A stretch of DNA of 64,000 nucleotides, taken from assembly GCA_026702745.1 (NCBI GenBank), contig JAPPBT010000025.1, positions 1 through 64,000 of the forward strand, given 5' to 3'. The notes beneath the pieces were generated by a model. The model was given only the letters and a program-made list of their open reading frames with translations. It searched no databases and was not told the origin of the DNA. The position numbers and the translations under genes are program-made. Of the stretch, positions 3-5,469 are shown one piece after another. Origin of the DNA: Gemmatimonadota bacterium. GTDB lineage: Bacteria; JAAXHH01. Each line of letters begins with the position of its first letter. Position 1 is the stretch's first letter.

Positions 3-668
3 GAGGGCGAGGAGCACGTGACCTGGTATCCCGAAGTGAAGGAACCGGTCGTGATCTCCTTCGGTGCTGCAGTAGCTGAAATACACCAGCGGGCGGACCA
101 GTTTCCAAAACCTTACTGTCGTCATCATTTCGATCTGCAATACCTGCTGGACGGTCCGCTGCAGACGCTGGGGTCCATCCTGCAAGAGCGGCGCGGCGAA
201 GACCTGACTTTCTTCAAGGATTACGCCGAGCACATGCGCCGGCAGATCAGCGGACTTGGAAAGGGTAAGGACATCTACGGTCTCATCCACGCCGATCTGC
301 ACGTCGGAAACATCCTGTACCATCCCGATAACGGCTACTGCATCCTTGATTTTGACCAGTGTGCCTTCGGCTGGCGGGCCTATGACGTGGCGACCTTCAA
401 GTACAACATCATCGAGACGGTGCCCGACCATCTGACGGACGAGATCTGGCGCTGCTTCCTGGAGGGATATAACCAGGTGCGCCCATTGACGCAGGTGGAG
501 CTGGACTGCCTGCCGGTATTCGCGAATGCCTGGACGCTATGGGATATCGGCGAGACGCTGGTGCTGGCTACGCAGTGGGGCGGTCACCGGCCGGACCTGG
601 TCGAGGGAGATCTAAACCAGGATGAGTATCTGGACGAGGCGGTGGCGGCGTTGCGGGGGATGGTGTGA
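3..668 (+). CDS. APH-family phosphotransferase (5' truncated by window edge)
   Basis: This is a protein-kinase-like small-molecule phosphotransferase (APH/homoserine-kinase-II/fructosamine-kinase superfamily). The frame is open to base 3 and the first in-frame start (GTG at 18) lies mid-domain, so the gene begins upstream of the window. About 216 residues of the C-lobe are visible. They carry the Brenner motif HADLHVGN (catalytic Asp and metal Asn), followed about 12 residues later by LDFDQ, the equivalent of the kinase DFG metal site. The downstream RecQ operon is 173 bases away and has a different base composition, so the two are probably unrelated. The substrate cannot be told from sequence. 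Homologues phosphorylate aminoglycosides, choline, homoserine or ketosamines. Confidence 0.8.
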   Translation, partial: EGEEHVTWYPEVKEPVVISFGAAVAEIHQRADQFPKPYCRHHFDLQYLLDGPLQTLGSILQERRGEDLTFFKDYAEHMRRQISGLGKGKDIYGLIHADLHVGNILYHPDNGYCILDFDQCAFGWRAYDVATFKYNIIETVPDHLTDEIWRCFLEGYNQVRPLTQVELDCLPVFANAWTLWDIGETLVLATQWGGHRPDLVEGDLNQDEYLDEAVAALRGMV

Positions 669-841: not shown

Positions 842-2938
842 ATGGATAGACACCAAGCAGAGAAGCAGCTGAAAATCGCGGTAGATGATCCGAATGTACG
901 ATTTCGCGAAGGCCAATGGGAAGCGATTGACGCTCTAGTAAATCAGAGACGAAAATTGATCGTTGTTCAATATACAGGTTGGGGCAAAAGCTCAGTCTAT
1001 TTCATAAGTACTCGTATTCTACGCGACCGGGGCGCCGGCGTAACGGTTATCGTATCGCCTCTCCTAGCATTGATGCGAAACCAAATTGATGCAGCGCAAA
1101 GGCTTGGTATCCGAGCGGAAACTATAAACTCCACGAATCAGTACAATTGGCCTGATATAAAACAGGATTTGCAATCCGACCGTGTTGATGCATTACTGAT
1201 TTCACCAGAACGGCTTTCGAATGAGGAGTTCGTTGACGAAGTTTTGTTACCGGTGGCTGATCGCGTAGGCCTGTTTGTCGTTGATGAGGTACATTGCATC
1301 TCCGACTGGGGTCACGACTTTCGCCCCGACTATCAGCGATTGGTAAACGTGTTGAAACAAATGCCGCCGAATATGCCGGTTCTTGGTACCACCGCTACTG
1401 CCAATAACAGAGTAATTGAAGACATTGAAGCACTGCTAGGCGACATCGAAATCCATCGCGGTTCACTAGTCAGGAAAAGCCTTGTACTGCAAACACTGCG
1501 TCTACCAGATCAAGCGTCTCGGCTTGCTTGGTTAGCAAGGCATATCCCCAAGCTTCCCGGAACCGGAATTGTATATGTGCTGACAGTACGAGACGCCGAA
1601 CAGGTTGCACAGTGGTTGCGACAAAAGGGGATAGAAGCATACGCTTATTATGGGAACGTGAATCACGACGACTTCGAGGACAGCAACCAGTATCGTCTTT
1701 ATCTGGAAGAATGCTTGTATAAGAACGAGATAAAGACACTGGTGGCTACTACTGCTCTAGGTATGGGCTATGACAAGCCGGATGTAGGCTTTGTGGTACA
1801 TTACCAGGCTCCTAGTTCTGTAGTGGCGTATTACCAACAGGTTGGCCGTGCGGGAAGAGCAATTGACACGGCTTACGGAGTTTTAATAGCAGGGATGGAG
1901 GATGATGAAATCCACGAGTATTTCCGTCGTACTGCGTTTCCAGATGAGGAACATGTAAACAGTATCCTTGCTGTTTTGGCTGAATATGATGAATTATCGA
2001 TCGCCCAAATTCAGCAACATCTCAATCTCAGGTACGGGCAGATCGATAAGGTATTGAAGATACTAAGTGTTGAAAATCCATCGCCTGTGATTAGGGATGG
2101 TTACCGATGGCGCCGGACAGCGGTACCATACCAGATAGACCGCACTAAAATCGAACGCCTGTCATCGCAAAGAGAAATCGAGTGGCAGGAAGTCCAAGAT
2201 TACATTGATTCAGAGATCTGCCTGATGTCCTTCCTGAGGAATTCACTCGATGATCCGGAAAACGAAAAGTGCTGGCGATGTTCAGTCTGTATTGGCGAAC
2301 CTGTTTTGGATATCGATTTAGACCAATTGCCAATCGTTGAGGCAACTCGTTTCCTGAAACAAGGAGATATGCCATTCAAGACGAAAGTACGGGTAGCTGA
2401 TGATGCGTTTCCAACATATGGCTTTCAAGGCTACCTGCCTCAGGAGTTACGGTCATCCGAAGGAAGGATAATGTCGCGTTGGGGAGATGCGGGTTGGGGT
2501 CGAATGATTGCTGCCGACAAGAAGACAGGTGTTTTTCGAGATGAGTTGGTGGCCGCCATGGCAGAGATGATCGAAAAGCGATGGCAACCACATCCCAAGC
2601 CAGAATGGGTAACCTGGGTACCATCGATCAGACAACCAACGTTGGTATCTGATTTTGCAATTAGACTCGCGATACAATTACAGTTGCCTTTCGTTGACGC
2701 CATACACAAGATTACAGATAATGAACCCCAGAAGGATCAGCAGAACATCTTTCATCAGAGCAAAAACCTGGATGGCGTTTTCAGGATTTCAGATCAGATT
2801 CCCGAAGGTCCCGCTATACTGGTTGATGACGTTATCGATTCAGGTTGGACAATGACGGTGCTAACCACTTTGTTGCGACAGGCTGGAGCCGGGTCGATCT
2901 ATCCCGTGGCATTGGCTTCAGCGGATTCTGGGAATTGA
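842..2938 (+). CDS. RecQ-type DNA helicase fused to a ComF-like phosphoribosyltransferase domain
   Basis: A 698-residue superfamily 2 helicase. RecQ motif 0 (FREGQ) is near residue 21, Walker A GWGKSS near 46, DEVH box at 148-151, TTATA near 183, and arginine-finger motif VI QQVGRAGR near 332. A RecQ-style zinc cluster follows (C460, C477, C480, C483). The last 110 residues are not RecQ: WVPS (593-596), then RLAIQLQLP, a Q-rich stretch, and the PRPP-loop motif VDDVIDSG (661-668) followed by LRQAGA. This is the ComFC/ComF-type phosphoribosyltransferase pattern. There is no HRDC domain. The TGA stop directly abuts the ATG of the DprA-like gene, so the two are translationally coupled. Base composition is about 45% GC against about 63% around it, and codon use differs, which suggests recent transfer. 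Likely role: DNA processing in transformation-like uptake or phage/plasmid defence. The helicase call is firm; the biological role is inferred. Confidence 0.88.
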   Translation: MDRHQAEKQLKIAVDDPNVRFREGQWEAIDALVNQRRKLIVVQYTGWGKSSVYFISTRILRDRGAGVTVIVSPLLALMRNQIDAAQRLGIRAETINSTNQYNWPDIKQDLQSDRVDALLISPERLSNEEFVDEVLLPVADRVGLFVVDEVHCISDWGHDFRPDYQRLVNVLKQMPPNMPVLGTTATANNRVIEDIEALLGDIEIHRGSLVRKSLVLQTLRLPDQASRLAWLARHIPKLPGTGIVYVLTVRDAEQVAQWLRQKGIEAYAYYGNVNHDDFEDSNQYRLYLEECLYKNEIKTLVATTALGMGYDKPDVGFVVHYQAPSSVVAYYQQVGRAGRAIDTAYGVLIAGMEDDEIHEYFRRTAFPDEEHVNSILAVLAEYDELSIAQIQQHLNLRYGQIDKVLKILSVENPSPVIRDGYRWRRTAVPYQIDRTKIERLSSQREIEWQEVQDYIDSEICLMSFLRNSLDDPENEKCWRCSVCIGEPVLDIDLDQLPIVEATRFLKQGDMPFKTKVRVADDAFPTYGFQGYLPQELRSSEGRIMSRWGDAGWGRMIAADKKTGVFRDELVAAMAEMIEKRWQPHPKPEWVTWVPSIRQPTLVSDFAIRLAIQLQLPFVDAIHKITDNEPQKDQQNIFHQSKNLDGVFRISDQIPEGPAILVDDVIDSGWTMTVLTTLLRQAGAGSIYPVALASADSGN

Positions 2939-4267
2939 ATGTCAGAACTATATAGAACACAGGCTATCCTGTTATTAAGCGCTCATTTCTCACAGGTGGG
3001 AAATGATGCGGCCAAACCGTTGACGATCAGTGAGTGGAAGCGATTTGCAGGATGGCTTCGGAAACGCGACATGAATCCATGGGATCTAATGACCGGGGAC
3101 ATCCATGAGCAGTTAACGGAGTGGTCTGATAAGTCTATTACACTAGAGCGTCTTAAAAGGCTCTTGGACAGAGGTGGAGCTCTTGCAATCGCGATGGAGA
3201 AATGGACCGGTGCAGGTCTTTGGGTTCTGACACGAGAGGACTATCCAAAGCGGTTCAAAAAACGACTGGGGAACGCTGCGCCAATCGTCGTGTTTGGTAG
3301 TGGGAACAAATCCATGTTGAAGGATGGAGGGTTGGCTGTAGTAGGCTCGCGCAACGCGGCGGAGGAAGACCTGGCGTACAGTTCTGGTGTAGGGGTTGTG
3401 GCCGCTGGAAGTGGCCTAACGGTTGTGTCCGGTGGTGCGAGAGGAGTAGATGAATCCGCAATGCTTGGAGCGCTCGCAAACTGTGGTAACGTGATCGGAG
3501 TGCTAGCGGACAATCTTTTGCGAACTAGTTCGAGTCTAAAGTATCGTAGACACCTTCAGGATCAGAATCTCGTTCTGATTTCTACCACAAATCCAGAATC
3601 GGGTTTCAACACAGCCAAAGCTATGGAGCGCAATAAATACATCTACTGTCTATCTGATGCAGCGATAGTCGTTCACTCCGGCGTTAAAGGCGGCACTTGG
3701 ACTGGTGCCATGGAAAATCATAGGAAGAAATGGGTGCCAACCTGGGTCAAACGTACCGCTGACAGAAAAGCAGGAAATGAGGACATTGTTAATCGAGGGG
3801 GAGGACAGTGGGCTCCTTACAAAATCGCTGATGTTGTTCAGCAAGTACGTCTCTCAGTTGATACTTCCAATCAGACATACAGTGAAGCTGAGAGCAAATT
3901 AGTAATTGGCGAAGGTAAAAACCTTTATAGTGGGATACATGCTGATTTAACACTTGGTTTGGAGACAGATATTCAAAAAGGGGGAGATGCTTCGGATGAC
4001 GAAGTGGCTGGCGAATATCCAGATTCGAATGCGGAATTACATATGATCGACAAAAACTTAGGATTCTACGAGGTGTTTATTTCAAAAGTGAGGATTCTGT
4101 GTGAGAACGATCCAAAGAATCGCACGCAATTGGCTGACATATTGCAACTTAAAAAGACTCAGTTGGATGAATGGTTGAATCAAGCAGTTTTAGAAGGCAA
4201 ACTTGAAAAACTGTCGAAACCAGTTCGCTATATTTGGAGATCGGCAGAGCAAGGTAAGATATTTTGA
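2939..4267 (+). CDS. DprA/SMF-like Rossmann (SLOG) protein with C-terminal winged-helix-like tail
   Basis: A 442-residue DprA relative. The DprA core is recognisable: the lead-in LTREDYPKRFKKRL near 97-109, GSRNA at 136-140, SGGARGVDESAM at 164-175 (canonical DprA has GxARGID..AH, so the usual His is Met here), and RNKYIYCLSDAAIVV at 231-245. KGGTWTGA near 250 replaces the usual SGSLxTA. Residues about 375-435 resemble a small helix-turn-helix like the DprA winged helix. DprA binds ssDNA and loads RecA during transformation; SLOG relatives can act as nucleotide sensors in defence loci. The ATG starts on the base after the upstream helicase stop, so this is a two-gene operon. It shares the helicase's low GC. 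The altered pocket residues argue against an ordinary housekeeping DprA. Confidence 0.85.
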   Translation: MSELYRTQAILLLSAHFSQVGNDAAKPLTISEWKRFAGWLRKRDMNPWDLMTGDIHEQLTEWSDKSITLERLKRLLDRGGALAIAMEKWTGAGLWVLTREDYPKRFKKRLGNAAPIVVFGSGNKSMLKDGGLAVVGSRNAAEEDLAYSSGVGVVAAGSGLTVVSGGARGVDESAMLGALANCGNVIGVLADNLLRTSSSLKYRRHLQDQNLVLISTTNPESGFNTAKAMERNKYIYCLSDAAIVVHSGVKGGTWTGAMENHRKKWVPTWVKRTADRKAGNEDIVNRGGGQWAPYKIADVVQQVRLSVDTSNQTYSEAESKLVIGEGKNLYSGIHADLTLGLETDIQKGGDASDDEVAGEYPDSNAELHMIDKNLGFYEVFISKVRILCENDPKNRTQLADILQLKKTQLDEWLNQAVLEGKLEKLSKPVRYIWRSAEQGKIF

Positions 4268-4332: not shown

Positions 4333-5469
4333 TTATCCTCTCAACATATTCCTCGCCTCCACCACACTTTCCACCGCCTGCTCCCGTGTATCCGCCATCG
4401 CCGTCAAGTGTCCCATCTTTCTTCCGGGGCGGGCTTCCTGTTTTCCGTACAAGTGCAGCTTGACTTCCGGAATGGCCAGGGCCGCTGCCCAGTCCGGTTC
4501 GCCATTCGTCCACAGATCTCCCAATAAATTTGCCATGGCCGCGGGCCGGGGCTGCTCAGTCGATCCGAGGGGCAGACCGCACACGGAGCGGACCTGCTGC
4601 TCGAACTGGCTGGTAACACAAGCATCGAAGGTGAAGTGGCCCGAGTTGTGGACGCGGGGTGCGATCTCATTTATGATGAGGTTCTCGTCGCGGTCGAGGA
4701 AGTACTCGACGCAGGCGACCCCGACGACATCGAGGGCTTCGAAGACCTTCCTGGTTAGGTTCACGGCGGTAACGTTTACCGCGCCGGACACGTCGGCCGG
4801 GGCGGTGGTGACATCGAGTATGTGGTGGCTATGCTTGTTTTCCACCGCACCGTAGTGCGCGTAGTCGCCTGTCAATCCCCTCGCAGCAACCACGGACAGT
4901 TCCAACTTGAAGTCGATAAACGCTTCGAGCACCGCTTCCTGCCCCGCCATGGACGCCCAGGCGCGGTCCACGTCGTCGGCCGAGTCAATCTTCACCTGCC
5001 CTTTTCCGTCATAGCCGAATCCGGCCGTCTTGAGCACGGCGGGCACGCCGATTTCCGCGACGGCCACAGCAAGTTCCTCTTTCGATTTAACGTGACGAAA
5101 TGACGCGACTGGAAACCCGTGTTCCGCCAAAAAAGTCTTCTCCCGCAGGCGGTTCTGCGTCGTGTGGAGGACACTTCCTTTGGGGCGAACCGGTGCAATG
5201 GGCGATGCGGCGTCGACGCATACGGCCGATATGTTCTCGAATTCCAGAGTGATAACGTCCACGTCTTCGGCGAAGCGCTTCACGGCCTCCACGTCGTCGT
5301 AGGCGGCGACGACTTCGCGGTCGGCGACGTGACCGGTGGGCGAGTCGGATTCGGGTGAGAGGGTGTGGACGCGGTAACCCATACGCCGGGCGGCAATGGC
5401 GATCATGCGACCGAGCTGGCCGCTGCCGAGGATACCGATGGTCGAACCCGGAAGGATTGGGTCGTTCAT
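4333..5469 (-). CDS. purK: N5-carboxyaminoimidazole ribonucleotide synthase PurK
   Basis: A cytosolic ATP-grasp enzyme of de novo purine synthesis. It makes N5-CAIR from AIR, bicarbonate and ATP. The 378 residues begin with the pre-ATP-grasp Rossmann motif GILGSGQLGRM. The ATP-grasp core follows, with VLKTAGFGYDGKGQ (the PurK substrate loop), then VEYFLDRDENLIINEIAPRVHNSGH, which is typical of PurK. Full length for the family. It lies 67 bases downstream of purE on the same strand, giving the usual purE-purK pair. It converges with the plus-strand DprA-like gene, and no terminator hairpin was seen between them. Confidence 0.96.
   Translation of the reverse strand: MNDPILPGSTIGILGSGQLGRMIAIAARRMGYRVHTLSPESDSPTGHVADREVVAAYDDVEAVKRFAEDVDVITLEFENISAVCVDAASPIAPVRPKGSVLHTTQNRLREKTFLAEHGFPVASFRHVKSKEELAVAVAEIGVPAVLKTAGFGYDGKGQVKIDSADDVDRAWASMAGQEAVLEAFIDFKLELSVVAARGLTGDYAHYGAVENKHSHHILDVTTAPADVSGAVNVTAVNLTRKVFEALDVVGVACVEYFLDRDENLIINEIAPRVHNSGHFTFDACVTSQFEQQVRSVCGLPLGSTEQPRPAAMANLLGDLWTNGEPDWAAALAIPEVKLHLYGKQEARPGRKMGHLTAMADTREQAVESVVEARNMLRG

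Follow-up and report, generated by a model that had tools for sequence, protein, structure and literature searches.

What is the pair of low-GC genes near the start of contig JAPPBT010000025.1 of a Gemmatimonadota bacterium, in which a helicase joined to a phosphoribosyltransferase (PRTase) is followed by a DprA-like protein? Here, we propose, with a probability of about 0.9, that positions 842-4267 of the 64,000-nucleotide stretch analysed (the window) hold an intact toxin–antitoxin operon of the PsyrTA (RqlHI) type, a cargo of two genes that was acquired by horizontal transfer and occupies a variable slot flanked by purK and an APH-family gene. The pair consists of two adjoining forward-strand open reading frames, the first (842-2938) encoding 698 amino acids and the second (2939-4267) encoding 442, with the TGA stop of the helicase gene (2936-2938) followed without any spacer by the ATG of the second gene at 2939. 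The original prediction of a RecQ-PRTase gene coupled to a DprA-like gene is thus borne out by both the reading frames and the domains, and the order of the genes, toxin then antitoxin and directly adjacent, is that of PsyrTA/RqlHI. Promoter and terminator scans at the pair returned signals no better than chance.

The PsyrTA family of toxin–antitoxin pairs has been validated; its first description is that of Sberro et al. (2013, cited in PMC8790059), and the literature gives it as an abortive-infection system. In extraintestinal pathogenic E. coli, RqlH, a RecQ-like helicase with a C-terminal PRTase, causes SOS induction and filamentation when alone, and its genotoxicity comes from the PRTase: toxicity is lost when this domain is removed or D663 is changed, the helicase changes K49A and D148A alter the phenotype, and the DprA-like partner RqlI binds and neutralises RqlH (PMC4670107). 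The window pair has the same architecture, while toxicity, binding and neutralisation have been demonstrated only with the E. coli proteins. This common architecture, together with the alignments, leads us to infer that PsyrTA and RqlHI form a single family; shosTA, psyrTA (printed as syrTA) and rqlHI have also been classed together by their DprA-type antitoxins, with DprA suggested as a sensor of phage DNA (PMC9122126). The locus had originally been read as a new module condensing ComFA, ComFC and DprA into two genes. This novelty did not hold up: the system already has a name, and the likeness of RqlHI to the comF operon and to DprA was raised in 2015 (PMC4670107).

The first protein is identified as a PsyrT/RqlH-like toxin, a RecQ-family helicase with a C-terminal PRTase, by PADLOC, Pfam and alignments. 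It matches the PsyrT profile (PADLOC PDLC03928) with 963 bits over profile positions 5-686 of 689, and Pfam recognises DEAD, Helicase_C and Pribosyltran domains plus a weak RecQ_Zn_bind, the Pribosyltran match lying barely over its cutoff (26.7 against 26.3 bits). The cutoff of the broader RecQ-family NCBIfam model is passed. A standard housekeeping RecQ was considered for this product and rejected, the score being 263.7 bits against the 640-bit cutoff of NCBIfam TIGR01389. PsyrT homologues align end to end, and the window protein is 46-60% identical to seven paired homologues and 32% to an eighth. With the E. coli chromosomal homologue, which is the sequence used in the pairwise comparison and is not F11 RqlH itself, it shares 59% identity in an alignment without gaps, and K49, D148 and D663, the residues studied in RqlH, occupy identical positions in the two.

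The catalytic motifs, all on the forward strand, are conserved. Across nine aligned PsyrT sequences, T45, G46, G48, K49 and S50 of the Walker A motif TGWGKS (residues 45-50; 974-991) are unchanged, as are D662, D663, D666, S667 and T670 of the PRPP-binding loop LVDDVIDSGWT (residues 660-670; 2819-2851) in the PRTase domain. In the DExH box (residues 148-151; 1283-1294), D148, E149 and H151 are likewise unchanged across the alignment, the window reading DEVH where homologues mostly read DEAH. Four cysteines of the RecQ zinc-binding region (C460, C477, C480 and C483; 2219-2290), placed by alignment and Pfam, are kept in the E. coli homologue and missing from two other aligned homologues. The predicted model of PsyrT (pLDDT 82) resembles RecQ; in it a strand (656-662) leads into the PRPP loop and a helix (669-680) follows, so that the PRTase domain of the original prediction has an intact loop in a strand-loop-helix setting. 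In Foldseek searches with this model RecQ dominates, with no PRTase match among the matches listed, and the last 190 residues, when searched by sequence among solved structures, matched PRPP enzymes only, all below threshold. We assign a PRTase to the C-terminus on the strength of its Pfam match, its PRPP loop and its homology to RqlH.

The second protein is a PsyrA/RqlI-like member of the DprA/SMF family, a putative antitoxin or partner with a C-terminal winged-helix-like region, as identified by PADLOC and Foldseek. It scores 459 bits against the PsyrA profile (PADLOC PDLC03927; profile positions 6-397 of 398), 117.7 bits against Pfam DNA_processg_A, and much less, 72 and 29 bits, against the PADLOC ShosA profiles. 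Its predicted model is moderate (pLDDT 65, with a weak stretch at residues 260-381), and the best Foldseek matches are DprA (3uqz) and ShosA (8zva). The proposed kinship with ShosTA, which likewise combines a PRTase toxin with a DprA-fold antitoxin, is therefore upheld by the weaker ShosA profile matches and by the likeness of the model to 8zva. We draw a distinction between the two systems: ShosTA has a stand-alone PRTase and a ShosA-type DprA, whereas the window PRTase is fused to RecQ and its partner is far closer to PsyrA than to ShosA (459 against 72 bits). ShosT is not known to carry a helicase.

The original prediction also drew attention to a changed pocket in the DprA-like protein. 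Alignment of PsyrA-type sequences places Met175, in the motif VDESAM (3446-3463, forward strand), at the canonical DprA His position, and KGGTWTGA (residues 250-257; 3686-3709, forward strand) in place of the SGSL-type motif. Both changes are real when set against the ordinary DprA encoded separately in the same genome (L002), which has VDTLAH, with the His, and RSGALITA, but they are normal for PsyrA. Of the eight PsyrA-type sequences aligned, window included, seven have Met in the pocket His column and the most distant has Leu, (K/R)GGT is present in all eight, and the E. coli chromosomal homologue, 42% identical to the window PsyrA, has Met at this column and TGGT. Since a pocket with Met and GGT is common to PsyrA homologues, it is a mark of the family rather than a peculiarity of the window copy. 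A standard DprA was rejected as an identification of this product, which scores 78 bits against the 191-bit cutoff for canonical DprA (NCBIfam) and has Met and KGGT where the canonical pocket has His and SGSL.

Is the pair kept together elsewhere? Eight homologous loci were compared, from Oceanimonas, from plasmid records of E. coli, Sinorhizobium, Acinetobacter and Nostoc, and from three further genomes; a single-protein scan of the genome collection returned Oceanimonas only, the other homologues coming from plasmid, IMG/VR and whole-genome searches. PsyrT lies immediately upstream of PsyrA at all eight genome or plasmid loci and also on one IMG/VR contig, which confirms RecQ-PRTase plus DprA as a conserved pair. 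A search of annotated phages gave no match to it. Defence genes adjoin five homologous loci. On the E. coli plasmid the pair separates hsdS from hsdR within a type I restriction-modification (R-M) operon, in Acinetobacter it is found inside a BREX operon, with pglX on one side and a DUF262/pglZ part on the other, and the IMG/VR copy has a WYL regulator before it and type I hsdM-hsdS genes after it; the Oceanimonas copy has PDC-M72 genes downstream, and the Sinorhizobium copy has nuclease-type genes (HNH/type IV-like) on both sides. The suggested link to defence thus holds for homologues that lie within or next to type I R-M, BREX and PDC-M72 genes, but the window copy itself sits in a single-cargo slot and in no visible defence island, much as an E. 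coli chromosomal pair (G749, L157:4941-8239) stands alone between gntU and yhgN.

Several further observations concern these neighbourhoods. Many E. coli chromosomes hold related RecQ/DprA pairs, according to a distant search. At three loci (L034:4634-12575, L036:309-12004 and L152:5085-13465) PsyrTA lies in or beside type I R-M (two) or BREX (one), and core genes stand on both sides of such nested homologues in two cases. The words RecQ and DprA are absent from a recent BREX survey (PMC12839542).

The window copy sits between conserved genes. On its left, the reading frame at 18-668 (forward strand) is the 3' part of an APH-family phosphotransferase gene, 87-94% identical to the C-terminal 216 amino acids of this gene in nine congeners and cut by the contig end alone (base 1 of the window is base 1 of the contig); on its right, purK (4333-5469, reverse strand) is found in all 12 genus genomes, with protein identities of 90-93%. 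In the nine congeners with both flanks on one contig (L058-L060, L062-L067), the slot between these genes ranges from 604 bases to 13 kb at 40-52% GC and holds varying cargo: AIG2-like, Sel1-repeat, a kinase/phosphatase cluster and uncharacterised reading frames, and in one congener a protein that has an EVE domain and also matches a restriction enzyme. In the window it spans 3,664 bases at 46.9% GC, with no other recognised defence gene. The two genes themselves have 47.6% and 46.7% GC against 62.8% for window positions 4333-64000, close to the contrast of about 45% and about 63% first reported. PsyrT and PsyrA are found in none of the 11 congeneric genomes, and hence PsyrTA occurs in one of 12 genomes of the genus and one of the 16 examined in the class and phylum; these counts use high-scoring PsyrA matches alone, because the PsyrA search across relatives mostly matched ordinary DprA. 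The variable, AT-rich contents of the slot and the lack of the pair in congeners point to a cargo site and to a recent gain of the pair. Horizontal gain is thus supported by sequence comparison, in line with the recent acquisition first suggested from GC content.

Two congeners show related features in this region. In G001, a stretch of about 202 bases from the 3' region of purK, 84% identical to the window purK, is found again about 12 kb further downstream (L067:13322-13523). Among the genes of the low-GC cluster between purK and the repeat is one for a kinase whose matches are PD-T4-6-like and mad6-like, and the arrangement looks like the result of an integration in which the end of purK was copied. 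In G005, a low-GC block (41-44%) a few kb past the slot (L065:7162-12564) carries an N6/N4 DNA methylase and a SNF2/ZorD-like helicase and is possibly a separate defence cargo.

In light of the pair being PsyrTA, what might its role be? By analogy with its relatives, it is likely to act as a toxin–antitoxin system in abortive phage defence. PsyrT, a helicase of the RecQ clade, would bind PRPP through its C-terminal PRTase, a domain that is genotoxic if unrestrained, and the DprA-fold PsyrA would bind PsyrT and hold this activity back. The likeliest trigger would be a replicating phage, or damaged DNA in which single strands are exposed, upon which the PRTase would be released and growth would stop, or the cell would die, before the phage matures. 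This trigger is proposed by comparison with ShosTA-like systems, for which a response to phage single-stranded-DNA-binding proteins or to replication intermediates has been described (PMC10732053). What the locus itself shows is its genes with their domains and motifs, the family they belong to, their order and their foreign origin; that the window copy would behave like E. coli RqlHI is inferred from the relatives, as are the trigger and the PRTase's chemical target. Against this reading count the DEVH in place of DEAH, the lack of any other recognised defence gene in the window slot, the many Gram-positive bacteria that have RqlH without RqlI, so that toxin–antitoxin logic is not universal, and the finding that in one E. 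coli native host neither deletion nor over-expression of PsyrTA gave detectable phage protection (PMC12409345).

One alternative, which we judge rather unlikely, is that the genes serve DNA repair or genome maintenance, with PsyrT unwinding DNA, the PRTase acting on bases or nucleotides and PsyrA completing the reaction, toxicity being a by-product of the loss of the partner. The RqlHI authors proposed such a cooperative, beneficial function on DNA, and in most Gram-positive bacteria RqlH occurs without RqlI; yet the double deletion in E. coli had no visible fitness cost (PMC4670107), and the patchiness of the pair (one of 12 genus genomes), its cargo slot and the nesting of homologues in R-M and BREX operons favour defence over housekeeping. 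It is also unlikely that the pair is an anti-plasmid or element-stabilising addiction module and not an antiviral one: homologues are borne by plasmids and toxin–antitoxin logic permits addiction, but the window copy lies between conserved core genes, with no relaxase or partition gene beside it and no integrase in as much of the slot as the window covers. That PsyrTA is a second-line guard for restriction or exclusion systems, released once a phage disables restriction, is suggested by the several homologues nested in type I R-M or BREX operons; we hold this to be doubtful, and the window copy would then be a free-standing relative. Finally, a shortened natural-transformation module, with RecQ for ComFA, the fused PRTase for ComFC and the DprA-like protein loading RecA, is highly improbable and was rejected, and the DNA-uptake role first envisaged finds no support: despite the likeness of the helicase, PRTase and DprA-fold domains to ComFA, ComFC and DprA, noted also in 2015, the helicase is of the RecQ clade, conserved DprA pocket residues are missing from PsyrA, as throughout its family, a separate canonical DprA is retained in the genome, the pair belongs to no competence locus seen here, homologues are tied to defence or carried by mobile elements, and the strains of the 2015 authors showed no detectable transformation (PMC4670107).

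Thus, the pair at 842-4267 is a further member of the known PsyrTA system and adds no new kind of system. It is like other PsyrTA in its near end-to-end profile matches, gene order, adjacency and domains, and there is no categorical difference, the window copy being set apart by its lineage, its place between purK and the APH-family gene, and its DEVH box. The finding extends the range of PsyrTA to another lineage, where its site is the cargo slot that separates purK from the APH-family gene.
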